DNA of 64,000 nt from Mactra quadrangularis (lineage: Eukaryota; Mollusca; Bivalvia; Venerida; Mactridae), in contig CM046307.1 of assembly GCA_025267735.1 (NCBI GenBank), forward strand, positions 59,577,395 through 59,641,394, written 5' to 3'. This document shows positions 38,501-62,500 of this stretch, in pieces. The position numbers were made by a program, and so were the translations under genes. The notes beneath the pieces are model-generated. The model worked only from the letters and a program-made list of their open reading frames with translations, was not told the origin of the DNA and searched no databases. Each line of letters starts with the position of its first letter. Position 1 is the stretch's first letter.

Positions 38501-41500
38501 ACAGTAGTTTATGTTAATCACTCTAGTTTATGATAATCAATAATAATCACTATTACGATCGTGTATTTCCCAGACAGAAATTAATACGTTGCTTACAAAT
38601 ATGGAAGTTGCACTCGAGCTAGTAGATCATATGCAAACATGTCTTAGCTAAATGATGTACTTTTTCAATTATTGATAATTATGATATTCATCATAATGCC
38701 TTCATTATCACTGATGAACATCATATTTCTTGGGAGATTGAGTTCATCAGTAGACCCCTTTATAAACCAAAACTGTATCATGTGAAGCTAGTTATTATTA
38801 AGAGTTATTGTTAGGAGTTCAGTAAGAGTTTAGATACGAGAAAGTAACGTTAGGGCTGTGCAAGCGCCCTTTTGGGCTGCTCGCACCATAGTTATTATAT
38901 TGTATTATCATTTTTAAGTTTACACTGGACTTACAAACCTATGTTAATTATGAATGTTGAACTTTACGATCGCGGACCTTAATTAAATGTCACCATCTAA
39001 AGACGTAGTGTTGTTATAATTATATCCTGAAGTGTTATTGACAATGCACATCGTGTTTGAAGAAATTATGTTAAACATGTACAAAACCCATATTGTCGAC
39101 TGAGTTATGCTATGCATTCAAGGTTGTTTATAGTGTTTCACAAGGACTATGACTTGATACCAATTTCTACTGAAATGTTCTTTGTGTGCCACCGTCAATC
39201 CAAACAGGGTAAATTTTCCCAGATGCAAAATATTACCAAAGGAATATATGTACATCAAATTAAGCCCCAAAGTTCTAAGTTTAGTTTAAACCTAATTCAT
39301 TGACATTTTGCATACATGTATAAATTCAATATACCTATAAGTCACAACAAGGTGATGACAGGTTCTACGGATTTTTCTGGGGGAAAAAATGGGGCGAGCG
39401 AGCGAAGAATTTAAAAAAATCTTAATTCAGTTGCTTCATACAGCGGTTTGACAAATTTCTTATGAGCGAGCGAGGAAATAAAAGTATATTTTTTGTAAAA
39501 ACCGTAAAATTTATGGTTCGTGCGAATCCATAGAACAAATGATCAACTTAATTGTTGTGGCCAATTATCTACATAAAACATATATTGCCCAAAATGTAAA
39601 AAAGGTCTGCCTTTACAACTTATTTGTTTACAGGCATTCTTCAAGGTCATAATTAGATAGATAGTGATACTGAATGAAGATTGTGATAGTTATTTATGAA
39701 TTCCTTGTTATTTCGATCGTTAAAAATGTTTCACATTTATATTCATTTTTTTGTTTAAAAATATCGTGCAGGTATATCTCTTTTTGTGGTGGTATAAAAC
39801 ATAGGCACGAGTTTTGATGTGCCAAATTAAGTGTTCTAGAAAGAGTTATTTATTAAAAATATCGTGCAGGTATATCTCTTTTTGTGGTGGTATAAAACAT
39901 AGGCACGAGTTTTGATGTGCCAAATTAAGTGTTCTAGAAAGAGTTATTTATTAAAAATATCGTGCAGGTATATCTCTTTTTGTGGTGGTATAAAACATAG
40001 GCACGAGTTTTGATGTGCCAAATTAAGTGTTCTAGAAAGAGTTATTTAGAAGTTTTAATACACGAATTAAAACAATTGCATATTATATGTATGTGTACAA
40101 CAAATTGTAGAAAAATTATATGCTTTTTTGATTTCTAACATACAACATTTAGTACTTTGGCTGTTAAGTTTTATATGCGATGGGGTAAATTGTAACAGCC
40201 GTGTATAGATCGATGACGTCACAGTAAGCATAGAGTGAAAACCACGTGTCTGTTAGAATGCTGCATATTTAAGTAGATATACAGGTAAAGAAGTTGTTTT
40301 GTCTTTATACTTCTGTAATGTTTAAGAACAATAGCACCACTTCTTACATATTTTTATTAAAGTTTTAAATGGTTTATAAAACATACAATTGTCAAGTGGA
40401 CAGTTTCAATACGTCATGTAGATGACGAAGATCAAATAAACTGAACATTTTCACTGTTTAAATTGTCGTGCAGATCATCTGCCAGATGCCGCTTGTAAGA
40501 GCGGGTTTAGCTATTATATTTTCGATTATGATAATTCGTGATTTTCTTTACAGTTGACAGAAGACGGAAAATTTCAATCATCAAGGTCAAGATGGAAATA
40601 TGTTTTAGTTGTTTTGGTATATATTTATTTTATCAATACTTATTTATTTGTTTGTTTTATTAGGGAATATTAACATAGAATCTATATGTATCATGCAATT
40701 AGTGTTTGGAGAACCAATGGATATACTTTTTAAAAAAAGCTATTAATCTTGGTGCATGGCGACTTTCAAGAGAGATACAAAAATATGCACATTAGAAAAA
40801 ACACCATTGAATCAATGGTGACTGTTAGAAATCTTTCAGTGGCTTTTAATTACAAGTGGTCAAGTGGTTAGTACATTGGATTGACAGTTGGGCTTATATT
40901 CAATGGTAGGGTCTATATAGTCAATAAATAAATTAAGTTGGGTGCATTTTTATTCTTCAGTGCAGCTGTCTAAGCCGACTTGACATTCATTTTTAACCTA
41001 AACAATTTTCTCTATTATACCTGTTTGTCCTATGAAATTCTCTTTTGTATAGAGAAATGGATAAAAGATAAGGTACCATTGGTTATTTGTGATAAATGGG
41101 TGCATAGAACAGACAGAAGTTGCTGACTTCTTACTCTGAGTATAATGGGTAACTCATTATGCTCATTGATTATGCTCTCACTGTGGTATGCTTCTGGTGG
41201 TGTGACTGAACAGTGAATTAATATATGACTTTTTATACTTCAAACAAAATTAACCCTGCTTAGCACCCAATATCTTTTTAAAGATATTTCTTGTTATTGC
41301 TTTGTTGGCATATTATGAATGCATTATATTGTACAAAGAATAAGTTAGTTATTAATAGTAAGACTATTTATCATTTTCTCAGGGTTTACTCTGTGTGGCT
41401 GGTTTGATTGTTGGTCTAGTTGTTGGTCTAAATAAAACCTCTACTAGTTCCACTGGTGAAGAATCATCACAAACGGGCAATGAACAAACAACTACTACTG

Positions 41501-44500
41501 TAAGTAAACCATTGTTATGTATTATATTTTAACTTATGTTCAATTGTGGTTTATTCTTCAACTGTGTTCCATAATTCAGGTTTATCTGCCTGTCCATAAA
41601 TGCTGGCTTAATTATTTTTTACAATAGCAGTACATGTAGTAATTTTGTAAAGTTAAATTTATGATGAACTCATTCCTTAAAAAAAAAACAAATGTTAATT
41701 TATTACAAGTGCTGAGAAATGTTGTCTTCTTCTTGTTTTATTCAAACTAGTTAGTGTTTTGATGTAATTAGTACAAATAGCATTTCATGTATTGACTAAA
41801 GACTCCATGTATCAACCTTATACTTCTCTTGTCTAACTCTACAGACAAGCATCGAAACATCAACACCAACATCCAAAGCAACAACATCAAATCCAACAAC
41901 AACAATTTTACCATCACCATCTACCACTAGACAGACAACGGAAAAGGAGTCAACTACTGCAAACCACACTCCCACAACAGAGAAGGAATCAACCACTACA
42001 AATAATCCAGATAATGTTGATTGGTTAAATGAACCTTGTTCTAGTCCAGAAACTTCACAGTGCCCTTGGAGGTAAGCTTGTCTTCTGAATACTAATTGAG
42101 AAAAAAACTCGCCTACTCGCTTATTTAGATCTGGCCTTTATATTGATTTGTTTGATTAAAGTGATACTTTTTAATACATGTATTTTATTATTTTAAACTA
42201 AGTTATTGTTGTTTGATTTGTATTTTTTGGGGGGAGATTTATTCTTTTTTTTCATATAAAATAGGATTCATATTCAAATTCTACTTTTGGTTACTCTCAA
42301 GTCCAGTCAAGTGTGATTATTTATACTTTTATAGTCTGTCGTATGCCAATCTGATTAAAACCCGATCTAAAATTTTCCACTCGCTTTTTGTTGCCAAATG
42401 CAAGATCTTAGGGTTCATTTTGTTGCCAAATGCAAGATCTTTGTGTTTTAGAGATAATTTGCATGATGACATGTTTGATAAATGATTCATATTTTGTTTT
42501 TGCAGTGATGAATCCAATCCATTACTTCTTATTTCCCTTGATGGATTCCGGGCAGATTATTTACTGAGAAATTTAACACCAACAATAGAGAAGTTAAGAA
42601 CATGTGGTGTTCATACACCATACATGAGATCAGTGTTTCCAACTTTAACATTCCCTAATCATTATTCTATTATAACAGTATGTTCTTTATTTAAAATTAT
42701 TTTTTCATTAAATCTAAATTAATTTGAACTTAACATTATTAATATGTCGATTAACATAACAAACTTTAATTTCATAAGTTGTTATTGAAAATTCCAGAGA
42801 AGGACCATTGCCTATCTGAATGCTGAAAAACATTTACATAAACCGTTTTTTTTTCTGCACCTGTCTACTTGTATTTTATGCATTTGGCATTTTTGTACAT
42901 TTTATCAAGATGTATCACACAGTTACAGCACTGTTTTAAACTGAGAAATTTTGTTAGTGTTTTAACCCTATGACACTGTAGCAGGGCTGTATATATATGG
43001 TTGTGTTATATTCATCAGCCTGATCAGCTAAGTTAGGAGAGCATTTGACTTGCAAGCAGGAGGTTGTGGATTCAATCCCTCATAGGGCATTTATTTTTTC
43101 CTCCTATTATGACACATTTAAGAGACAAAAGTCTCGGCTATAATTACTTAGTTAGTCATTTAAAAGCAACATTTTATGGCAAATTTTATGTGAAATAATA
43201 TAGTATATATCAATCATATTTTGTTCTATATCCTGGGTCTGTAGCGCAGCTGGTAGCACTACAGGATTTTGAATCATGTGTCCCGAAGGGGGTGCAAGTT
43301 TGAATGCCACCCAGGACAGTTATACCCTTCCATGAAAATTTGACAATAATGTCTATTTTCCTCCACTAATAAGGTATATGGAGAAGTTGCCATGCAGCCT
43401 TGTGGATAGGGTAGTTGAGTACTGGTTATAGACAGGGGTCCAAGAAAGATAGATCAGGCACATTGGCCTCCATAAATGACCTAAATTGTGATGACAGGGT
43501 GTTAAACCCAGTTTATATATATATACATGTATATTCTATAATTTCAGGGTTTGTACCCAGAATCCCATGGTATTGTAAGTAATTCTATGTATGAGCCACA
43601 TTATAATAACTCATTCTCTATCGGTGGAGACGGAAAGTTTGAGTCATATTGGTGGGGTGGTGAACCGGTAAGTCTTCTTTATTTCACATTTCATTAATCT
43701 CTGTTCCAAGGTATAAATAAAGTCAAATGATCTTCAGAAGGTAAAGAAATAATTGTTTTTGTCGAGTTCTTGCACCAGCAATACAACAGAATAGAATCAA
43801 GTTGGGAATGATGCTAATTGGTTACTTTTCTTTTTCTCAAAATGCCCATATTAGCCTATGGGTTGTTACTGATTATGCTGACTTCTCTGCACAAACATTT
43901 TTGCAAATGACCTAGTATACCCCATGACTCAATTTTTATGAGAATAACAGAGATTAAGATGTATTTTTATTGATTAGGTCATATAATGGTCTTAATAGAG
44001 TGACATGTATAGGTGGTACCCAGCAGTTATGATATCTAGATGTGATCTTGTACTTTTCTTACAGATATGGTCCACAGCTAAGCAACAAGGAAAAAGAACA
44101 GCATCATACTTCTGGGTTGGAAGTGAAATGAACATATCAGGTATTCAAATGATTCTATTTGTTTTATACTGAGCGACACATGTGTATTTTAAATTTCAAA
44201 ATTGATACATTTTAACATAAGCAATCAAACAATGTATGTAATATTTGATTATTTGAAATTACTTTATTGATGTTTCTGTTGTTGTTTTTGGAGAATACAA
44301 CAAGCTTTGTTACTAAGACATATTTTCACTGTTGGCAGCTGTAAATGATGTATGTGGTTTGTATATACATATATAATTCCATAAAATAGTACATGTACAT
44401 GTAGTTGATTTTGATTGTAACTTTGATATTTTCAGGTCAACAACCAGACATATGGTTTCCTTATGATGGGTAAGTTTGTTATTTTGTTTTTAAAATTACA

Positions 44501-47500
44501 GTGAGTCACAAAGTTAAATACATGTTGCCAAGTTGTATGCAGATTTGCCTCAAAATGTATTAAAACAACCAGTAGACCATGGACAAAGTCCACAGAAATC
44601 ACTACCGATGAAGTGACTCTCGGAATGTGTCAGTGCCATTCCACAATTTTTACAGCCATATTTCATTTTAAATAAGCTATTATTTGTAATTATATTGTCT
44701 ATTCAGTAAAGGGTATGTTATGATAAATTATAATACATACTTTATTTTTTTATGGACTGATGGCCAGTACTCCTATTTAAACAATGGCATCACAAAATTC
44801 TAAAAGTATATTTTACTTGTATATTTACAGTGGTGTCGTAATGTATATTTTACTTGTATATTTACAGTGGTGTCATATAGTATATTTTACTTGTATATTT
44901 ACAGTGGTGTCATATAGTATATTTTACTGGTATATTTACAGTGGTGTCAAAAAGTATATTTTACTTGTATATTTACAGTGGTGTTATATAGTATATTAAC
45001 TTGTATATTTACTGTGGTGTCATAAAGTATATTTTACTTGTATATTTACAGTGGTGTCATATAGTATATTTTACTTGTATATTTACAATGGTGTCATATA
45101 GTATATTTTACTGGTATATTTACAGTGGTGTCATATAGTATATTTTACTGGTATATTTACAATGGTGTCATATAGTTTATTTTACTGGTATATTTACAGT
45201 GGTGTCATATAGTATATTTTACTTGTATATTTACAGTGGTGTCATATAGTATATTTTACTTGTATATTTACAGTGGTGTCATATAGTATATTTTACTGGT
45301 ATATTTACAGTGGTGTCAAAAAGTATATTTTACTTGTATATTTACATTGGTGTTATATAGTATATTAACTTGTATATTTACTGTGGTGTCATAAAGTATA
45401 TTTTACTTGTATATTTACAATGGTGTCATATAGTATATTTTACTGGTATATTTACAGTGGTGTCATATAGTATATTTTACTGGTATATTTACAATGGTGT
45501 CATATAGTATATTTTACTGGTATATTTACAGTGGTGTCGTAATGTATATTTTACTGGTATATTTACAGTGGTGTCATATAGTATATTTTACTGGTATATT
45601 TACAGTGGTGTCATATAGTATATTTTACTGGTATATTTACAATGGTGTCGTATTGTATATTTTACTGGTATATTTACCATGGTGTCATATAGTATATTTT
45701 ACTTGTATATTTACAGTGGTGTCATATAGTATAATTATTTTACTGGTATATTTACAGTAGTGTCATATAGTATATTTTACTTGTATATTTACAATGGTGT
45801 CATATAGTATATATTACTTGTATATTTACAGTGGTGTCATATAGTATATTTTACTTGTATATTTATGGTGGTGCCATATAGTATATTTTACTTGTATATT
45901 TTGCAATCATGTCATATAGTATATTTTACTGGTATATTTACAATGGTGTCATATAGTATATTTTACTTGTATATTTACAGTGGTGTCATATAGTATATTT
46001 TACTTGTATATTTACAGTGGTGTCATATAGTATATTTTACTTGTATATTTACAGTGGTGTCATATAGTATATTTTACTGGTATATTTACAGTGGTGTCAT
46101 ATAGTATATTTTACTTGTATATTTACAGTGGTGTCATATAGTATATTTTACTTGTATATTTACAGTGGTGTCATATAGTATATTTTACTGGTATATTTAC
46201 AATGGTGTCATATAGTATATTTTACTGGTATATTTACAGTGGTGTCATATAGTATATTTTACTGGTATATTTACAGTGGTGTCATATAGTCTATTTTACT
46301 GGTATATTTACAGTGGTGTCATATAGTATATTTACTTGTATATTTACAGTGGTGTCATATAGTATATTTTACTTGTATATTTACAGTGGTGTCATATAGT
46401 ATATTTTACTTGTATATTAACTATGGTGTCATATAGTATATTTTACTTGTATATTTACAGTGGTGTCATATGGTATATTTACTTGTATATTTACAGTGGT
46501 GTCATATAGTATATTTTACTTGTATATTTACAGTGGTGTTATGTAGTATATTTACTGTGGTGTCATAAAGTATATTTTACTTGTATATTTACAGTGGTGT
46601 CATATAGTATATTTTACTGGTATATTTACAATGGTGTCATATACTATATTTTACTTGTATATTTACAATGGTGTTATATAGTATATTTTACTTGTATATT
46701 TACTATGGTGTCATATAGTATAATTTACTTGTATATTTATGGTGGTGTCATATAGTATATTTTACTGGTATATTTATGGTGGTGTCATATAGTATATTTT
46801 ACTTGTACATTAACAATGGTGTCATATAGTATAATTATTTTACTTGTATATTTACAATGGTTTCATATAGTATATTTTACTGGTATATTTACAATGGTGT
46901 CATATAGTATATTTTACTGGTATATTTACAGTGGTGTCATATAGTATATTTTACTTGTATATTTACAGTGGTGTCATATAGTATATTTTACTTGTATATT
47001 TACAGTGGTGTCATATAGTATATTTTACTGGTATATTTACAGTGGTGTCACATAGTATATTTTACTTGTATATTTACAGTGGTGTCATATAGTATATTTT
47101 ACTGGTATATTAACGGTGGTGTCATATAGTATATTTTACTTGTATATTTACAGTGGTGTCATATAGTATATTTTACTTGTATATTTACAGTGGTGTCATA
47201 TAGTATATTTTACTTGTATATTTACAGTGGTGTCACATAGTATATTTTACTTGTATATTTACAGTGGTGTCATATAGTATATTTAACTGGTATATTAACG
47301 GTGGTGTCATATAGTATATTTTAATTGTATATTTACAGTGGTATAACATATGAACATAGAGTAGATACAGCTCTAGAATGGTTAACAATGCCTACAGGAG
47401 AGAGACCAGATTTTATGACGTTATATTTTGATGAACCTGACCATACTGGACATGGCTCTGGACCTGATAGCCAAGAGGTATGCACAATATAAGTTCAAGT

Positions 47501-50500
47501 GACATATTTATGTAAAACTAATACAAAGACTTATCTTGTATTAATTTAATGGGATTGATGTTACTTGTATATGGGCTAACATGTTTTCATTTAAATCTTA
47601 CCAATGATGTACAAACTTGCCGAATTACTCGAAAATCATCAATTGTTGATTTTTTATACCAGGTTACATGAAATTAGGTGGTTGCTGAAGCGTTTTCGAG
47701 TTTTGTTATGAATGTTGTTTAACCCTTTACTGGTTGTGACATGTGTGAAAAGTAGCCATTTTTTCACCATTACTCGCTATTTCAAGATGCTCTTATTTCT
47801 TTACTACTTACCATACAGATGTGCAACTTGGCCAAGTTATTCCCTGGGTGAATATCTTTCAGAAAAACCAAGTTGAGCCCCGATCCCAGTTACCATGCCA
47901 ATGCTGGGGTTGAGCAAAAACGGCAAAAATTGCAATTTTCACTATTTCCACCCCACATTCCATCAGCATTTGACGCCATTTCTCTGCACTCAATGACCCC
48001 AATTTTTTTCTGGCGATGAGGGACGCTGCGCCCCCTTCAAACCCCAGCAACAAAGTCCCTTCGGAACTCCCCATAGACATCTTTTGATGGGTGAGGCACG
48101 CAAAAAAAGCTCATTTTTTGAGGACAACTATCCTGTAGTTTCATTAAATTCATTAAATCTAGTTAAAAAGCACTATTTTCAAGGCTGTGGCAGCCATTTT
48201 GGAGGGGGGTCTAAACATGTCAAAATGCGTCACGGAGCGGTAAAGGGTTGAAGTATAATGTTATTATAGAACACAAAAGATTTTAACTTTCCTGTAACTC
48301 GTCTTATTTTTATCTTCTTCCAATACACAGTGCAAATATTATTAGTTTTAAAAGTTAGTTACATAATATTTATTAAGCAGTAAGTAGTGTACATGCACAT
48401 TATTTATCTGGATAATTGGAAGTTATATTCAAAGCTTTAATTAACATAATTATATACATTGTCATTAAAACACATTATGAAAGATAACATAATCAACCTA
48501 CTGCAAGGTTTTCTAGAATGTTCACTAAATGTATCAAATTTTATATTGTAGGTAAATGAAATGTTGGAGAGAATGGATATTATTATACGTCGATTAATGG
48601 ATGGTCTTCTTGTACGTAAACTGGAACATTGTGTCAATATAGTCATAATTGCTGATCATGGTAAGATGTATATATCAATAATTACAACCTAAGCGATATA
48701 ATACAATTTGATTGGTCAAAAGTGAACACATGACTTGAAAAATGTGTTTTCATTTCCGTATAAACACAGTTGCCAACAAGAATTCATTAATATTCATGAC
48801 TTTAAATTACGTCATGCTGGTACTAGTTCATGAATGAAAAATCTATTTTAGCGCTGTCACACACAAAACAAAAGCTATGCACGTCAATAAAAGAAGTAAA
48901 TCATCGCAAACATGAAAAATGGTCCGATAATATCATATTGAAAATAAAATAAGAAATAAATGTTAACCGAAATAAACATTTCAGTTTCACTTTTATCTTT
49001 ACTATAAATAGCAAGTTGACCTCGACCTTGATAAACACACGGGAAAAGCGTAAAACTTTCAACTTGTTTACACGTTTTTTTAAAGCTACACAATCTTGGT
49101 TTTCCCTTTTAGTGCTCTTTTTATACAAATTAAAATCCAATTACTTACATTTCTTTGCATAATTGGTTCTGTTATGACATTAAACCCTTGAAAAATTGCA
49201 TCAAAGCGGAGAACAAAATGGCCAACGGCTGGCATGAAAGACCTGTGTACGACCAAGATTATTCCGCACTACAATGCATTCAGCTCTTACGCACTAAAAT
49301 ATAGTTCTTGATATCATCGCAATTAATAATGGCTCTGTCGACAAATTTCGCCCATTAGGTTGTAATTGTAAGGAATGAATTCATAGAAACTGACTTTTAT
49401 CGAAAAATAAATGTCACTTTTGGTGATAGCTAATAATTTGCATAAAGGCTGAAGGCCTTCATGCTGGAATTAGCTATCACCAAAAGTGACATTTATTTTT
49501 CGATAAAAGTCAGTTTCTATGAATTCATGTGGCACTACATGTACACTGTCCACATATTAAACTAACTCTGCATCTTCAACTCAACAAGAACATAACGACA
49601 AACACTCATCATAGGTTTATAACTTATTATTAATACAGATTTAACATATCTACAAAACTACGTCCGCTCTCTCCCGGAGCTAGAAAGCAACCCTCTGAAC
49701 TAACTCACGCTGCGGGCCACCAGACCGTATCAATGATCACGTGGTGATCAGTCACGCTCTCATTGGTCAAATAACCACTACAGAACTCTCTATTGTTCTG
49801 GCAGCGAGCCATTGTGTTACATACGTCCCCCACAAAAATGAAGTTTTGAACGAACAAAACTTAAGTGAAAAACGCGAACACAATGGGCGTTAGAACCAAC
49901 ATAAATCTGAAAGTAAAACATAACATGTATTATATATAATACCACGGGTGCACCCAATAAAAGATTAAAATACACATCAAACAAAACATAAATCACGGAT
50001 CCCTACAGTTCATTTCTACGAGTGATAATTATTAAAATAGTTATTCCTACAGTTTATTCACTACTGATAACTATGAATGTTAACTAATATATATAACTGT
50101 TGAATATTCCACCATACTCCACTAAGTTAGATCCAAATTGGTAACCATCAACCACTATGTAGAACGAAGACACCATTAACCACAGAATGAAGAACCATTA
50201 ACCATTATGTACGGTTAAGATGATTTAAATTTATAGGAACTGCAGAATGCTGATATTGTAAGTCCCCAAGACTGTCGCAATTTCAGTCAATTTATCTTCG
50301 GGAACACCAAGGTTCTGTCGTCGTAATTGTGACAAGATCTCCATAAAGAAACGGTTGAACAAATGTCCAAAATTTTCCATTTTAATTATATTGTGATTGA
50401 TGAAGAGAACACATTAAGCGTTTATCCTACACTGAGTGAAGATTATAATCACAAGTCACAAAGTAATCTATTACGGATCAACTAGTAGAAGTAATAACAA

Positions 50501-53500
50501 TTAAATATCAATTGTCCACTTTGGCAATCAATATTAACAACTACATATATTATATTGTAGAGAACCAAACTTCATAGTTAAATGTTATAGACACACTACA
50601 GGCGTGTTGTTTCATTCCTCGACGGAACATACACGTATGGGTACAGTCTCTCAACATTTATTGCGTTGATTGCTTCATTATGTTTCTCATCACCACTTTG
50701 TGGGGCGGATCCGGCTAGTGGTTGTCCCCCACTATTCTCCATTTGTTGGAGTCTCATTTCTGAGGCCGCATCATTTTGTCCCTCCTTGTCCCCCTTACGC
50801 AAACATTTTGACAGGCGGTTTCTAAGTTTTGATATATGTTTCCGGATACAACAGATGGCAGTTATAATAACCACAAGACTGGCTATGGTTGTGCTTAGTT
50901 GGAACCAAGTACTATGTTTGACGGACTTGTTATTAAATTCATTGTAATTGACCCTAGACAAGTCGTCAATTAACATGTTCATTAACATCTCATCAATTTC
51001 TCGTAACTTTGGTGGGATATTAATTTCACTAACATTTGGCAATACAGCATTAAAATCTCCCCATAACAAAGTGTTCGAAAAGTTCGCGAATGCCAACAAA
51101 TTTTGACTATTATGATTAATCATTGACCGACCAATGATATAGGGTGTAGATAATGAAAAATGATTTCCAGAAACAGTACATTGCTCATTTATCTGTATTA
51201 TATCTAGGCGAGGTTTTGTGCTGATTCCGGTGCGCCGGCCGTTGCACACCAGAGACAGACTCAACTCATCGCGTGAAATCACTACCCAAGATGTTCCAAA
51301 TAAGTACTTACTTATAGGAAGTATTTGTTGTTCAATTTTTATTTGACAGAATTTATTCGGACTCCCATTAAGAAACGTATTCACGATACATGATTTACTT
51401 AAACCCACCGTATACACGGGGCTAATTACCATACAATACTTTATATCTCCATGACTACAAGAATTTAATTCAGTTTCTGTTAATAACTGATACTGAGTAC
51501 GTTCCTTATTTATTAATAACCCACTGTTTTCTAACTCAATACTCGCTAACAAATCTTTATCGCCGACAACAGGTGTCGGAGATAATGTAGGTAATGAGAA
51601 TGCTCTATACACTTCGTAGGTTTGATCGACTCTAATTATTGGTATAGAAAGAATCATTACAATCTTATCGGTCATGAATACTACACCAGTCGTTAAATGT
51701 CGATAAAATGACCAAATATCTGTCTGTGGATCGCTAAGGAATGTCATAAGTTTAGGCAACTTTCCTTGAATTTCGACTAACATTTCTTGTAATCTACCAG
51801 GACTAATTATCTTGGTGGATAATTTTCCTTGTCTTAGAGAATTCAACTGCGCATGTATATTACCCAAATATAATCTAGCGTCTCCTAATAAAAGTTTTAT
51901 CTCATCGAGCAGCAAATTGAACTGTAATGTAGTAATGAAAAATTTTCGATTTTCCATAATTTCGCTTAGTAATTCATGATTAATAGTATTTAATTTCATG
52001 TCCAATTGTTTGACTGTTTCTAATAACTTATTGATTGTTTGCCTATTTTCCTGAATCATTACCCGCGATGCATTTATAATTGTTAAGCTATTTTCAACAA
52101 CATGTATAATTCGTTTTTGATTGGTCGCTAAATTGCTTACTTGTTGTCGAATAACCTGTATATCATTCTCACTTGCGAGACCAAATAACCATGACAAACC
52201 TTCTCCGATAATAGGTATAACTGACCTCTTTGTTTTACCTTTAATTTTTCTAAACTGATGAAATTCTGATTTAATTTCATTGAATTCAGAATTTAGATAT
52301 TGGATTTCTTGTTCATATGTATATAGTATCCTCTTAAAAGTGTCCAATTGAGTCCGAGTATAATTATGCATTAATATTTTTACCAAAGACCCTGCGCGCT
52401 GCACATCGTTATCAATATACGAAATAAATCGTTCAAAATCCGCAAAGTCAATTACAATAGTAGCTAACCATTTAGCTCGCGAAGTAGCAACTTCATTTGT
52501 TTTAAAATACACAACCGAATCTTGAATTATCACATTACCACCACCTAAACTGATCAATATTACCGCCGTCAAAATACTTAGCGTAAACGGACTCATGTTT
52601 CAACTGAAACATAAACACAAAAAAAAATATAAGTTTAAACATGATAAATAAGCAGTACATCTGGCGAACTCTGCTGGAGTGAATTGCACAGAGTTCAATG
52701 CCCCGATCTCATAAGTATGCCTATTTATATCAGGATCTACCAACGATGACTCAATATCATCACCCGGACTAGAATCTACCGGTACACGTGAAAGTAGGTC
52801 AGCGACCGTATTTTCAGTGCCTGCTAGATACTCAATCTTACAGTTATAACCGGCTATCGATAATGCCCATAACGAAATTTTCTTATTTTGCATCGGAGAA
52901 TCAAGAAGATACTTCAAAGGTTTATGATCACATTTAATAACAAATTCAGCATTATGAAGATAATGATCCAATTTCTGGAGACTATAGTATATTGCATAAG
53001 CTTCTTTCTCAATTGTAGACCACCTAGTTTGAGTATCACTAAGGCGATGACTAAGATAATAAATCGGTCTCTCAATGGACTCATTATTTTCTATAATTGT
53101 TTGTGTAAGACAAGCACCAATACATTTATCACTGGCATCTGTATATAATGTATACGGTAATGATGGGTCAGGAAAGCAAAGTAATGGCAGTTTTACGAGA
53201 GCTTGTTTAATGTTATCAAAAGCCACCTGGCATGAATCAGTCCAATTAAACTTTGCGTACTTTCTAGTCAACGCAATTAGTGGCTCTGCGATCTCAGAGA
53301 AATGATAAATGTATCTACGATAATAACTAGCCATGCCAATAAATTGTCTTATTTCTCGAACAGTAGTTGGGGCTGGTAATCGGTTAATGACATCAACTTT
53401 TCTTGGCTCTGGCTGAATGCCATGCTCATTAATAACAAATCCCAAATAATTAGTTTCAGATTTCAAGAAACTACATTTCTTTAGCTTAAGCCTGAGACTA

Positions 53501-56500
53501 TGTGTACGCAATCTATCAAATACTTTTTGGATATGAGCCAAATGTTCTTCAAATGTATCCGAATATATTAGAATATCATCAAGATAAGCGGTCGAAAAGT
53601 CATTCAACCCTTCTAATACCCTATTCATTAATTCCTGAAATATAGCTGGTGCATTTACTAATCCAAATGGCATGACATTAAAATGAAATAAACCCCGATG
53701 ACAGGTGAAAGCTGTTTTATCCTTATCTTTATTGTCCATCAACACCTGCCAATATCCGGACTTTAAATCTAATGAGGTGAAGAACTTTGCCTTTCCTAAC
53801 AGTGCAAGAATGTCATCGATAACAGGTAACGGATAAGAGTTCATCTTAGTGACCTTATTTAATTTCCTAAAATCCACGCAATATCTCTTTGTACCATCCT
53901 TCTTATCAACAATTACAACAGGGAACGCCCACTCAGACCTACTCCTGTCAATTATTTTAGCGTCCAACATTTCATCAACAGCCTTATCAATAATTTTCCT
54001 ATTATTAATCTGAGTGCGATAGGGTTTTAATTTAATTGGAGGACTTGTGCCAGTATCAATCTTCATTTTTACTGTATCCGTATGACTCAGCTGAGCATCA
54101 TTCGAAGCGAACAAATCGGAATTCCTAATAAGGAGACGCCTTATAGCGTTTCTATATTTATCCGGCACGTCGATATCACTAAATTGTTCTGAGTTATTCT
54201 CGTTATCAATGCTATCAACTTTATGGCCATTAACACACTTCGCTATAGAGGAAATATCTTGAGGTTCAACGCTAATTAGTTTTCCGACCGGGGAACCTTG
54301 TTTTAACAAGAATGTCTTATTTGTGCTATTTACTATCATAATGGGAATTTTACGACTATTTGTTAGATTACATATCGAAGCAGTTATCAAAACACCAGGC
54401 TCATTAGTAAGAGATCCATTCTCTATGTCCGAAATCTCGTACAACTTATTTTCTGGAAACTGTGGATGTTTACGAACTGAACAATAACAAATTGATGCAG
54501 ACTGCGGTCGGATACTAACCTTTGACCTTAGTCTTAAAATAGAAGCTACATGTATATCATCAACCAACGGAACGTAAGTGTCATGAACTCTAATACACGA
54601 TAAATCATGGTATACACGTACACCACGTGATTGAAGCCAGTCCAGACCTAGAATTATATTTCTGTTCAAATTACGAACAACATAAAATTTATGACTCATA
54701 ATGAGACCGCCTAAGTTGAACTTTAGCTCGATCAGACCATCTACATGAAGAGGAGTGTTGCCAGCCGTTGCTAAATTTAGATTGTGTTTACCTAATTTGG
54801 GTTTGGTTTTCAGACCATCGTATACCCTACGATGAATCAATGATACCTCAGCGCCTGAATCTAAAAGTGCTCTATATTTTTGCTTTTCTATTTTTAGAAG
54901 CAGAGAATTATTACTTACATAAGCTGAATTTATGAATATTGTACGGTTAATGTTATATGTGCTTTTACTACTTCTCGCATTGGCTTCAACATGCGAGAAG
55001 GCCCTTAGTTTAAATTTTTAGTTTTTTTCTGAGAACGGACTTGACAATTCCTAGTTATGTGTCCTGGTTTCCTACACCTAAAGCAAATAATTTCTTTCTC
55101 AGCCTTAACTTGCTCCGAATCAATTTGTACGGCATTTGCTTTATTCTCAAACTGACGTTTTCGACAGTCCTTAATTAAGTGACCCTTTCTATTACAATAT
55201 CTACAGCGCAGACTATGTCTCGAGTGGTCCACCTCTATAGGTGTATGTTCACTCTTTTCCCCATAGTCGTGACCTGTACGAAGCTTAAACCTCTTTTGGA
55301 CGGTCTGCTCCGCCGCTGCAATGCTAATTGCATCTGAAATTTGAGCTGGATTGGCCTTCATAATTCTTAGTTTAAGTTTATCATCTCGCAGGCCATCAAC
55401 AAAACAGCCAATTAATTGATGGTCCCTGACGCATTGTGGTTGACCCTCAAATGCATCATCCGCCAATGAATTTAATCTTTCTGCGTAGATTTGTACCGTT
55501 TCACCTGATTTCTGTTTACATTGTTTTAGCAATAACAACGCGTACTGCGAATCAATAATTTCTCCAAAATTTATTTTTAATGCTAACTTAACTTGTTCCC
55601 AACTATGAGAAGGATGAGCATCTAAATACCGTTTAAGGAAATCTGAGACGGGACCTAGACTAACCTGATAAGCTATAGATTTGGCATTTTCTGTGGGGAT
55701 TTCTGCGGATGAAATGAATTTTTCAATGGATTTTACCCATTCTTTGAATTCTTTTGGTTTCGAACCATCAAAACTTTTAATAATTTTTGTGACCCCCTGT
55801 GTATAAACAGACGATGTTAGTGCTTTCATATTCTGATCTACTGAACGTACGGACGTGGTCAAATTCGCCATCTGTCGATCCATAGAATTGAATAAATGAA
55901 AAAATAAGTCATCTCTATTTGCAGGATTACCACCAGGCAAAGGAATTTCATGTGGCATTTGTACACCTTCCGCCATTCTGTCAAATTACGTAAGAGAAAC
56001 AAATATTGAAACAAAACTTACGGTTTCTTGGAAGAATCTTCGTTGTTACCACTTGAATCCTACACCAGAATTTATTTTATTGTCTATCAAAATTGTCACA
56101 CATTGTTTCACAACACCCAGGTTTAAATTGAATTTTAAAATCTGTCACAAATTTTAAAAAACATCCTGTCAAACGGCACCATAAATAAGTCTATGTGGCA
56201 CTACATGTACACTGTCCACATATTAAACTAACTCTGCATCTTCAACTCAACAAGAACATAACGACAAACACTCATCATAGGTTTATAACTTATTATTAAT
56301 ACAGATTTAACATATCTACAAAACTACGTCCGCTCTCTCCCGGAGCTAGAAAGCAACCCTCTGAACTAACTCACGCTGCGGGCCACCAGACCGTATCAAT
56401 GATCACGTGGTGATCAGTCACGCTCTCATTGGTCAAATAACCACTACAGAACTCTCTATTGTTCTGGCAGCGAGCCATTGTGTTACATTCATTCCTTAAA

Positions 56501-59500
56501 TAGATGTAATTAGATGACCGGGTGGGAGGGGGGTCCCATGTTCAGGAGTGGACTGTAATAAATTCTTATTTCAATCTGCTATGGACTGTTACATAAGACG
56601 GCCGTGTGCAATTAAATGAGATTAATACTCCTACAATTAAAATGTATGTGTTAATGTGTTTGTACCTTGAAGAGTAAAAATGTAACAAAATATGACCAGA
56701 GTAATCATACGTATTTGTATTTCTGCTGGTCTCTGAAAAAAGCAAAGGTATTCTACCAAACTAAACCTTAAGTTGACTATTTATAAGTTGTTGGTTCAAA
56801 TAGATAAACGCTGTTTATTTTTCTGTATTTTAAAGTTATTTTGTATAAGTTCAAAAGTATTACATAATCAGTAGTATCATAAATGATCACCTAGCATTCT
56901 CTTTCTATAGGTATGTCAGCAACATCATGTGAAAGAAGGGTTGTATTAGATAAATATGAGAAAGCTGTCAATGATATGTTGGTTTATTCTGGCACTACTG
57001 GTTTTATTCATACTGGTTTTAAAAAGTTAGAAAGTGGTACAGTGATGGAGAATGAAGAAGGTATACTTACTGTTGCTTTGATTTAGTTGTCATCACGTCT
57101 GTCATGAAAGAAAATTCTATATATAAAACATCAATGTGTTACTCTCTATAAAATTTATATACATTATTAAGATTCATACTGCATACTTTATTCTGCTCCT
57201 ATAGGGATAGTTCTGTAGTATGTCTGTGATGTTAGGATCAATTGTGGATGACAAAATCTACTTATTTTTATATTTCATGGCTCGTCATTAAAGGTTGTCC
57301 TATTGCCCTTGACAACCTATATTTAGGTTTAAGCAACCTGTTATTGCAATTTAAGATAAGATTCGGGAAAGTTAAAAATATAGCTAGCTGTTCATTTGGG
57401 CAATCTAGTTATAAAATTAGTGTGGAACCCTGCCTTTTTACCAATAGTCGTCTGGTTTCCATTCGTTTACTCTTTTTAATCAGTTTACTGAGCTGTTTTA
57501 ACTGCTTAAAAATTACTGTAAGATTTATACGGGCCAAAATGATCAGACTTATGATAACATGTTTTATTGATAGAAAAAGACATGCACAGTAATGCAGTAC
57601 TATATTCTATGTAATATAATTCAGCAGTTGATATCTAGACCCAGTTTGAGCAATGTAAGTGCAACAAATATGTGGCGGCACATAGACCAAGTGCTTTAAA
57701 AGTTTGTATTATTCATCCATCAGAAAATAAATGTTACTGATTTCCATATACGTAATTATTATTTTTCCTTTCTAGTTGTACCAACAGAGAAAGTTTTAGA
57801 GTCATTGACATGTAAGAACTCCCATTTAAATGTATTCTCCCATGCATCTACACCTATACGTCATCATTATACTAATAATGACAGGATTGGGGAAATCTTA
57901 TTAGATATAGAAGATACTTGGCTTGTTAGGTAAAACATTTCTGTTATTATGTTTTTTATCATGGAGTTTTTGGCAGCCATAGCTTGCAATTTCTAAGGTT
58001 TTTTTATGAGTAAGAGCATATGGAAATCTTTCTTTGTTTGGTATGACATTCAATTTTTATCAACTGATAAGAAATTTTATCTAAACTACTAGAGGAAGCT
58101 TGAAGCAAAAAACAATTTCCATAAGGATTTTAGGTACAAAAATATCATATTTTCTTTATGTTGAAACATGACGTTATTCCATGAAAATATATGGTGGAAA
58201 TATACCTTCAAAGCTCATGAGGTCCAGCTCCATTATACCCTTACTCATTGAATTACTCAATTACTTATTGTACAGACAGTTTAGGGCTTTATGTGACACA
58301 TATGATAAAACTTGAATAAATAAACATGTATCATCCTTAATCAGTGATAAAAATGTATTCATTTATATATTTGTTTACAGCCCTACAAGAACTAACTTTT
58401 GTTTAAAAGGTAACCATGGATATGACAACATCTATAAAAGTATGCAGGTATAGTATATATATTTTGTGTTTAAAGATTCATTTAGGATATACTTGCATGT
58501 CTATTAATTATTTAGATTTACTATTTTGTGTTTATACTTGAAGCTCTGATGATAGTTTTATAGTTTATAGATAACAGACTCAAGTGTTTTTGGTTTCTTA
58601 ATAGCATGTAAATGTGGTTGGAATTGTTGTTATTTGATAATCATAATAATGAAAATGTATAATATGTTTCAACATAAAATATCATAGGGTTTATTATAAA
58701 CTTAAAACCACCAACTCAATTTTCACATAAGACAAAACTCAACAGTTCATTAACAGACTCAAATCAATACAATTAAATTAAATCTTATCCAAACATGTTA
58801 GTCAGTTTTATTTTATATAATTTTGCTTTTAAATCGCTAGTGGAGCATCAATTGATACTACATTTGCTGTGACATTGCTTATATTAGTAAAATTATTTAT
58901 CAAAACATAATATTGAGTTTGAGTACTAAATTTAGTTTTTTTTGTGAAACTGTGGCCTGATGTTATCTGAAAGAGCTCACTTGTGGTAAGAATACTCAAG
59001 AAAACCACTATAAAAGCAGATAGTTAGTACTTTACCAACCAAAAGTGATAATATTCAACATATTCTCTGTTATTTACAGATTGTTAAACTTCTAAAAAGA
59101 ATCTATTTAAAAAACACCATTATCTATTTCTCATTGTTTCAGGCATTGTTTTTAGCCCATGGACCTGATATAAAGCAGAATATTGAATCTAAACCGTTTG
59201 AAAATATAGAATTATATAACTTTATGTCAGGTATGTATGTCAGTTTATCTTATTTACTGCTGTAAATGTTGTTACTGCCAACTTCAGAGAAACTTGAATC
59301 ATTTTTAGACTTTTGGCGATTTCGCCGAAAGGCTTAAGTTATACCACAACTCAAAAACCTATTGACGATTCAAATGCCTGATCAGTTTAACTTGCAGAGT
59401 AATACATGTGTCTCTGATTTACTAAGCATTTAATTTCTAGGCGATAAAAGAGGTTCTGTCAATCAACTGACACATCTTTGTTTTGGTTTTAGTGACAGGT

Positions 59501-62500
59501 GTTTAATTGATAAGCGTGTGGATGGGCGGAGTCAAATCTCGTTAATACACTAAGCAGTAATATTTGCCAGTAATACAGGGTAGAATAACACTTCACCTGC
59601 ATTTTTGCCCTGCTCGATTTGTACTTGAATCTAATGTGTAAGGAGTAATCTAGTATGGATTTGTTAGGTTTCAATGTGCACGAAAGTCTTTCTGTGTTTT
59701 AATATTTTTATTAAAATTATTCAGCTATGGATAAATCATAGGAATTTTGATTTTAGATTGATCAGTGACTTGAGTCCACTTCCTGGTCCCTAGTAATAAG
59801 CTAGTAGGATAAAGTTTCTTGCTTGATGAAACAAAGGAGTAGGTCTTTGATGTAACTTGAACCAATGTGAAACTGGTAATCCAATGATTAGTTTAATGTC
59901 GTAACCACTTGTGCGTGCCTATAATGGCAAAGAAATACAAATGCTATATTATACCTCTATAAAATGAGTAATATTTACTTGGAGGTAGGTATTACAGGGT
60001 ATGGTAGATTATAAAGCATTGATACTTATGTATTTACACTCTTTTTGGAAACAAGACATCCCTGGTCTGTGGCACAATAGGTTACATGCAGAATTTCGAA
60101 TCTAGTTTACAGAGCTGGATTTGGCCTCACCTGGGCTGTTTATACCCTTCTATGAAATTTCAGCAATAATATTGATTTTGCTCCATTAATAAGTATTTGG
60201 AGAAGTTTAAAGAAGGCTTTATGGAAGAATAGTTAATTACGGCTTATAGACAGATGTCTATGAAAGCTAGGTTAAGTAAGCTGGCCACCTTAAATGAACG
60301 TAAATTGTGTTGACATTGGGTAAAAACCCAATAAAATATGGAGCCATGCAAGAGCCATCTAGTTACATTACAGTGGTAAATCACATTGTTCCTTTGTGGT
60401 AGCAATATAACAAAATTGTGATATTTAATGATTACAGACTTGTTACATATACAACCTGCACATAACAATGGTACAGTTGGAGCATTATATCATTTATTAC
60501 GTCACCCTCCATCATCCCCAACAAATATAGGAAATAATCTACAAGTTTGTATGAAATCTGGAAATACACCATCAAACACATGTAGCTGCAATAGTACGGT
60601 AAGCTTATTTAAAAAAAACTAACCTGCTTCCTTGAAGTCTTTATACAAAGGAATTTGTGCAGTTTTAAAAGGTTGGTGCTAGCTCTTTATTAGTTTATAC
60701 ACTGTCGTTAGTACCTTGGCTTTTGTCAGCAAATGTGGTTTGTTACTGGTTGTGGTTAGATAAACACAGGTATGATGGTCCTTACTTTGGAAGTCTTATT
60801 TTAATGTTGTATGAATATATGGGAACATTCTATACTCGTACATGTATTTACATATTGAATAAACTATGCCTTAATAGCAATAATGCACATTCTTTATTGA
60901 TGTGTAAAATTATTTTTGATGTTAGGGTTTCTATTTTTTTACATTTCATGAAACATTTTTATGTAATTTTATTTCCTAGGGTACCTACACTCCACCAAGC
61001 AATTCTGGTGATAATATATTTCCATTTGGTATACCAGTAAGTGATAATTTGACATCAGGATGTATACTCCATGGTAACCATTACTCATCTATATTTAATA
61101 CATTATATAAAGTACCAATAGTAACTTCATTTCCACTAACTGCACAACAGGTAAGTTTTTATTTTGTCATGAAAACTATTCAATAAAAGTCACCATATTT
61201 CATATTATTATACCTCATGTTAAAGCTAAAGCCTCAGTTGACATTACTTGTCTTGGGTGAACATTCCATTCTATCATCCTCTGTAGCATGTGATATCTAT
61301 ATTATGCTTAGGTAGAAGTCATGAATTTATCATAGAAAGTTTAAGGGTATACATCTATATCTTTTTATTGTTCAATTGACAAAGTTTAACTATTTTACAT
61401 GTAGTTTATTTACCAGTATATGGTGATAAGAATCAATTATGCAGATCTAAATTGCTACAATATGAATGACAAAACCTCTATCATTTGACCTCAATGTCAT
61501 TTTTTTCTGAAGATGTGACTTCCTATAGGTAAAATACATGCCGCATACAATATTTATGTACAAAAGTATGTCAACTTTAAAGGACAAAATCAGATTTTTT
61601 TTGGGTGTTCAAACTCTTGCTTCTTCACAGAGCAGGTTCATGACACATTATTTTAAATGAAATTTTAATTGTTCTCAAGTACAGTAAAGTTCCCACTATT
61701 AGGACATCAAATGAATAGTCTTAGCAGTAGAATGGTCGTTATATTGGGACCTTTTTTTCTTCTCAATTTAAGCATTTGTGATTTGAAAATCATCAAAAGC
61801 CGTATGATTTTGCAATAACCAAGATGATGTTTATAGCAGAACTAAACTGTATTTGGGACTTAAAAATCATCAAAAAATCATATGATTTTTGCAATAGCAT
61901 ATGTTAAGCGCTTTTGAACATACATTCAATATGAAATGATCGCTATACAAATGCGGTAAATAATAATAATAATAATAATAATATGTCATCTTTACATTGG
62001 AACTTTACTGTATTTGGAAAACTATTTAAACATTGAAATTATCTAAGACATAAATATAAACTATCTAAGGTAGAACAATATACTGCTGACACTGAAGATT
62101 GCTATGTATCTGACACTAGACTTGGTAATGATGATATATTTGATTGTATTGAATATAAGAATATAAATACCAGTATAGATGATCTTAGATTGTTTGATCC
62201 AGGTAACTATAGTAACATTTATTAGTTTTGAAACTACATTTGTATATATCTAAGGTTTGATAGCAGTTTGTTTTTCTTAAAAGTGAAATAATTTCCGTTT
62301 GATAGGTTTGATAACTATTGTTTTTCTTAAAAGTGAAATAATTTTCAAATTCAAATTTTCATGTACAAAGGTATGTTGCTGCTTTACTAGAAGGATATCA
62401 ATAACAATATTTAAATCACTTTTATATGCCTATTAAAGATGAGTCATCTAATGTGAACACCCTTGGCATCTGGTTTGGTATACATCTGGGCCTCTGATTT

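Follow-up and report, generated by a model that had tools for sequence, protein, structure and literature searches.

How might a gene find the right splice acceptor when the intron in front of one of its exons is filled with copies of that very acceptor, and how would such an intron have come about? The question is raised by a window of 64,000 nucleotides (the whole stretch of DNA analysed here; C15:59577395-59641394) from the bivalve Mactra quadrangularis, which we set against the complete assembly (979 Mb, 447 contigs). The explanation that we find best, and hold to be fairly probable, is that of a single acceptor multiplied to 69 copies, likely grown by duplication and likely tolerated through use of the last copy.

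The host gene and the anatomy of the array

Judged from its predicted product, the host gene of the array is an ENPP-like ectonucleotidase. The product matches Pfam PF01663 with an E value of 9.9e-92 as well as the solved ENPP3 and ENPP1 chains in the PDB, and its two top-scoring proteins, among the best 120 of 6112, come from Mytilus, with 51% identity over 63%, and Batillaria, with 46% over 69%. The exons that flank the array intron (Table 1) are the 7th and 8th of the 15 detected, the preliminary description having numbered them 9 and 10; its statement that the upstream exon leaves a GG remainder gives the right phase, with the spliced model open through all 15 predicted exons. The downstream exon is expected, for an ENPP enzyme, to hold two zinc ligands.

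A second ENPP-like gene of matching exon structure lies directly downstream (L014-L015, C15:59641000-59660000), and further matches on C4 (E 9e-20, L017) and, weakly, on C17 (E 3e-5, L013) point to a small family. Within an intron of the host gene, positions 49528-56488 of the window have a layout that resembles an LTR retroelement, i.e., identical stretches of 295 bp begin at 49528 and 56194, and between them run long reverse-strand open frames of 805, 667 and 326 codons (stop to stop). Beside it, at 49375-49528, stands an inverted repeat with exact 56 bp arms (49375-49430 and from 49473).

Table 1. Predicted features of the array locus (positions within the window)
Feature	Position	Strand	Remarks
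ENPP-like gene model, partial	40554..61150	+	15 predicted exons, single open frame, GT-AG borders
Exons 1-5 of the model	40554-40616, 41383-41499, 41845-42071, 42506-42677, 43548-43667	+	
Exons 6-10 of the model	44065-44140, 44436-44469, 47339-47477, 48552-48660, 56911-57060	+	
Exons 11-15 of the model	57776-57929, 58381-58447, 59143-59230, 60438-60598, 60980-61150	+	
Exon upstream of the array intron	44436..44469	+	34 nt, leaves GG
Array-bearing intron	44470..47338	+	2869 bp, 2534 bp of them array
37-bp acceptor array	44805..47342	+	69 units, last 4 bases exonic; 43 AG-intact, 26 AG-dead
Unit 68, last decoy	47276..47312	+	AG dead (CGG), two YTRAY branch-site-like motifs
Unit 69, predicted own acceptor plus 4 exon bases	47313..47342	+	C12A private, creates YTRAY 14 nt upstream
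Exon downstream of the array	47339..47477	+	139 nt, encodes GGITYEHRV...EPDHTGHGSGP

Tandem Repeats Finder (TRF) places the array at 44805-47342, with a period of 37, 68.8 copies and 88% matches. The array first described, of about 68 copies at 44806..47352, is thus real, whereas the end given for it lies 14 nt within the exon. Wrap-around alignment yields 69 units (a 70th stub made of exon bases was dropped), the last of which is the gene's own predicted acceptor, with its AG at 47337-47338 and the exon starting at 47339. The unit had been described as a close copy of the true boundary and the array as stopping at the real acceptor, and both descriptions hold: 25 of the 26 intron bases and all 4 exon bases (TGGT) of the boundary are identical to the unit consensus, C12A being the one intron change in unit 69, and this unit abuts the exon exactly, its likeness to the consensus ending past TGGT, 4 nt within the exon. 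The AG is kept in 43 of the 69 units, i.e., in 42 decoys and in the gene's own acceptor, and the intact decoy closest to the true site has its end 74 nt upstream. Intact ACAG and dead ACAA forms are both present, as first noticed, with CAA the commonest lesion (14 of the 26 dead units); the dead units are, however, of seven kinds, the others being CTG (3), TGG (3), CTA (2), CGG (2), CAT (1) and CCA (1).

Were a decoy to be used, the predicted translation would end early. From each of the 42 intact decoys, the reading frame closes within the array, with a peptide of 4 to 76 residues. This bears out their earlier description as a poison end and rules out that the array is read in frame over a long distance. 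The peptide foreseen for most of them, Gly-Gly-Val-Ile-stop, is exactly the one predicted for 33 of the 42, with other peptides in the remaining 9, while splicing to the true site is predicted to continue the enzyme frame.

Decoy strength and the choice of the true site

Each copy was scored with a splice-site model, as the preliminary description had proposed, by means of a log-odds matrix made from 35 other acceptors of this gene and the adjoining paralogue (the window, L014 and L015), all of them predicted sites from two related genes. Left out one at a time, these 35 acceptors score from -2.9 to 9.2 bits (median 3.7). The true site reaches 7.3 bits and the 42 intact decoys 4.4-6.5 bits, all above that median, 4.4 being the score of the G14 form of the unit. 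None of the 42 decoys equals the true site, by a margin of 0.8 bit that is small and bears no heavy reading. Among 367 other AGs in 12 introns of the ENPP-like gene (the retroelement-bearing intron being left out), none reaches 7.3 bits and the 99% quantile is 3.3; in the genome background, sites of at least 6.4 bits occur at 0.085 per kb of strand (200 kb, 20 regions, three contigs).

The locus can be regarded as a natural 43-way contest between acceptors whose 26 intron bases are identical or nearly so and whose 4 exon bases are the same in nearly all units. The winner of this contest must depend on position, branch site or exon context, and because the competing acceptors are near-identical locally, exon definition can be tested directly against first-come choice. 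Since the local signals of the units are so nearly identical, the true site would be marked out by its place beside the exon, close to that exon's donor; its branch site may also play a part.

In exon definition, a donor is paired with the nearest upstream acceptor. The mechanism that we propose for the multiplied and tolerated acceptor has four steps: (i) the gene's own acceptor would have been the seed, its unit spreading by slippage or unequal exchange; (ii) exon definition would pair the donor of the 139-nt exon with the closest upstream acceptor, bypassing the decoys; (iii) transcripts spliced wrongly would be degraded through nonsense-mediated decay; and (iv) AG-dead units would have become common through the small cost of working decoys. 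As for the branch site, a YTRAY motif 10-50 nt upstream accompanies 3 of the 43 intact sites (units 45, 64 and 69), with two motifs at unit 69 only, and the two motifs of unit 68 precede the last base of the true AG by 52 and 40 nt. YTRAY also stands at 13 of the 35 other acceptors, so that the branch-site argument carries little weight. Concealment of the decoys by RNA structure was considered as well and is out for the last 431 nt (array plus exon), in which no unusual structure was found: this segment folds less stably than 100 of 100 shuffles (z +2.23).

The founding paper on the amphioxus Adh mirage reportedly appeared in Nucl Acids Res in 2002. Such 'mirage' minisatellites are described in Adh3, the globins BflGb6 and BflGb9, TnC and PGBD5; AG/GT signals are kept in many of their units, and normal splicing is reported to be undisturbed (PMC3087553, PMC3902484). 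The array described here resembles them in that (i) its units span the intron-exon boundary (26 intron bases with the AG, then TGGT, of which these 4 exon bases are certain), (ii) it sits on an authentic boundary of its own gene, unit 69 being the predicted acceptor at 47338, and (iii) the splice signal is kept in many units and not in all (AG in 43 of 69). The dimensions differ. The BflGb6 mirage has units of 150-160 bp, 6 of them in one haplotype and 3 in the other, and the Adh3 units measure 10-72 bp, whereas here 69 units of 37 bp, with 43 intact acceptors, carry only 4 exon bases each. Because mirage arrays built in this way are reported, in amphioxus, to be harmless to splicing, our analysis would favour toleration over the other roles first suggested for the array, i.e., the tuning of splicing and a decoy field for U2AF.

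Lesions at the AG

Lesions are over-represented at the AG. Of the 29 distinct single-base alleles, 5 fall in columns 25-26 of the unit (P 0.018); on one haplotype spanning tree, these columns take 8 of the 45 substitution events (P 0.0026). Across 500 tie-broken spanning trees, they receive a mean of 8.6 of 45 events (range 6-12, expected 2.4) and are the top column pair in 474, the excess being weakest (P 0.033) in the trees with the fewest events there. This over-representation (P about 0.003-0.03) is suggestive, though not proof, of selection against working decoys. In the array, lesions of decoy splice sites are recorded in a form that can be counted.

The same excess could stem from a mutation hotspot, or from slippage beside TGGTGG, in an array that is fully neutral and in which selection played no part. 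We consider this a serious possibility, though one that falls short of an even chance. The TGG and CGG lesions resemble, in our own reading of the units, slippage from the adjoining TGG. The other AG of the unit (columns 1-2) is also somewhat variable, with a mean of 4.0 of 45 events that lies above expectation, and column 14 is as variable, with 5 events. AG loss is moreover independent of decoy strength: of the T14 decoys, the stronger form, 14 of 41 have lost the AG, and of the G14 units 11 of 26 have done so (P 0.61; unit 48 has a gap at column 14 and is left out). The dead units show no clustering by a runs test (P 0.16), yet units 50-57 are all dead. What speaks for selection rather than a hotspot is the variety of the lesions, since the AG has six different dead states, the most of any dinucleotide in the unit, against 4 for the next highest. 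A hotspot would touch one step of the multiplied and tolerated acceptor that we prefer, and is compatible with its remaining steps.

A regulatory decoy field, in which the intact acceptors hold U2AF or the spliceosome and so cause retention or poison splicing, with copy number setting the ENPP level, seems unlikely to us. It would account for 42 decoys that score like real acceptors and are all poison, and decoy exons are among the topics of work on OGT intron retention. A human parallel is the VNTR in intron 18 of ABCA7, built of 25-bp units that contain a splice donor; a retained unit leads to a premature stop, and greater length of the VNTR goes with more skipping of exon 19 (PMC5954066). 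The two have in common an intronic minisatellite with a splice site in its unit; in our array, however, the splice-site-like sequence that was scored unit by unit is an acceptor, whereas that of ABCA7 is a donor, and there it is the next exon whose skipping goes with the length. Regulation should also preserve decoys, yet AG lesions are in excess, and the amphioxus counterparts are reported to leave splicing undisturbed.

Origin of the array and its neighbourhood

The exact 24-mer core of the unit has 26 matches in the assembly, all of them in the array, and the window holds 26; one copy of the locus was found. A second array of the same kind elsewhere in the genome, which the preliminary description had named as the finding that would speak against it, did not turn up for exact 24-mers in the 979 Mb. 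The matching intron of the neighbouring paralogue (953 bp, same phase, after an exon of equal length, 34 nt) lacks the acceptor array, and TRF shows no array touching its acceptor. Growth by duplication of the acceptor, as first proposed, is therefore the best-supported origin, and the gene's own acceptor is likely to have been the seed, because the exact core was found nowhere else in the assembly, the paralogue intron is free of the array, the last unit abuts the exon exactly and strong-acceptor arrays are rare among those sampled. Chance origin is ruled out by 69 ordered units that end on the exon, with the exact core found nowhere else.

The opposite order of events, in which an intronic minisatellite grew to the exon edge and its last unit replaced an older acceptor, strikes us as improbable. 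Minisatellites are frequent in this genome, and the likeness between unit and exon ends after 4 exon bases; growth into the exon edge is kept in play by an exon-side alignment that as a whole has P 0.056 and past TGGT is at chance level (P 0.42). Such growth requires, on the other hand, an array that reaches the exact edge of a coding exon, and an exact copy of the core was found nowhere else. A unit acceptor of at least 4.4 bits is carried by just 2 of 37 TRF rows (period 20-200, at least 4 copies, from the sampled regions and local loci, some overlapping), these being the acceptor array (6.5) and one other at 4.9. The Mytilus and Batillaria proteins are too distant to polarise the event, and the exon's second Gly codon, considered as overwritten by the array, is uninformative, Gly standing there in at least one homologue (P0006, by eye). 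Least likely of the readings weighed here is a copy-number rheostat of 42 near-perfect poison acceptors against one true site, in which the amount of functional ENPP would depend on how long the array is and on what proportion of its units are AG-dead, and selection would have edited decoys at the AG and strengthened the last copy, the latter suggested by its private branch-site change and its best score.

A minisatellite with multiple splice donors is said, going by a title, to lie in an interferon-induced transcript, apparently 6-16/IFI6; it likewise offers many splice sites, donors by that title as against acceptors here. Tandem repeats at exon-intron boundaries in human segmental duplications, likewise minisatellite expansions, are reported to modify gene structure and to be capable of switching on cryptic splice sites and of giving rise to new introns (PMC2812944); with units of 30 bp on average and about 4 copies, they are not described, in the available part of the source, as an acceptor array ending on the true one. 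In number of units our array exceeds the mirages of the amphioxus globins, and its host's two top-scoring proteins, among the best 120 of 6112, are molluscan. From its sequence, it is apparently a further many-unit case of the mirage type, outside amphioxus. No acceptor array outside amphioxus was found in the open-licence literature searched, though this does not prove that none has been published. The locus suggests that boundary minisatellites are no peculiarity of amphioxus.

Other repeats were seen in the neighbourhood and beyond. An intron of the paralogue (L015:2771-3312, on C15) carries, mid-intron and on the sense strand, 5 copies of a 108-bp unit with an acceptor-like TTTCTACAG of 1.7-2.1 bits. 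Its AG has become GG in 2 of the 5 copies, this being one of just 5 variable columns of 108, a loss in the same direction as in the main array and in a sample too small for a test. A 51-bp array at positions 1-385 of the window and at L016:6181-9996 has open frames of up to 319 codons (stop to stop) with a 17-residue repeat; it may be coding, or stop-poor merely since 51 is a multiple of 3. The single COX1 search match in the assembly (L018, C140:18390-19715) is presumably a cytochrome oxidase of bacterial type, and the assembly likely holds in C140 a bacterial contig, from a symbiont or a contaminant. Just upstream of the first detected ENPP-like exon, at 39755-40048 of the window, stand three perfect copies of a 98-bp unit.
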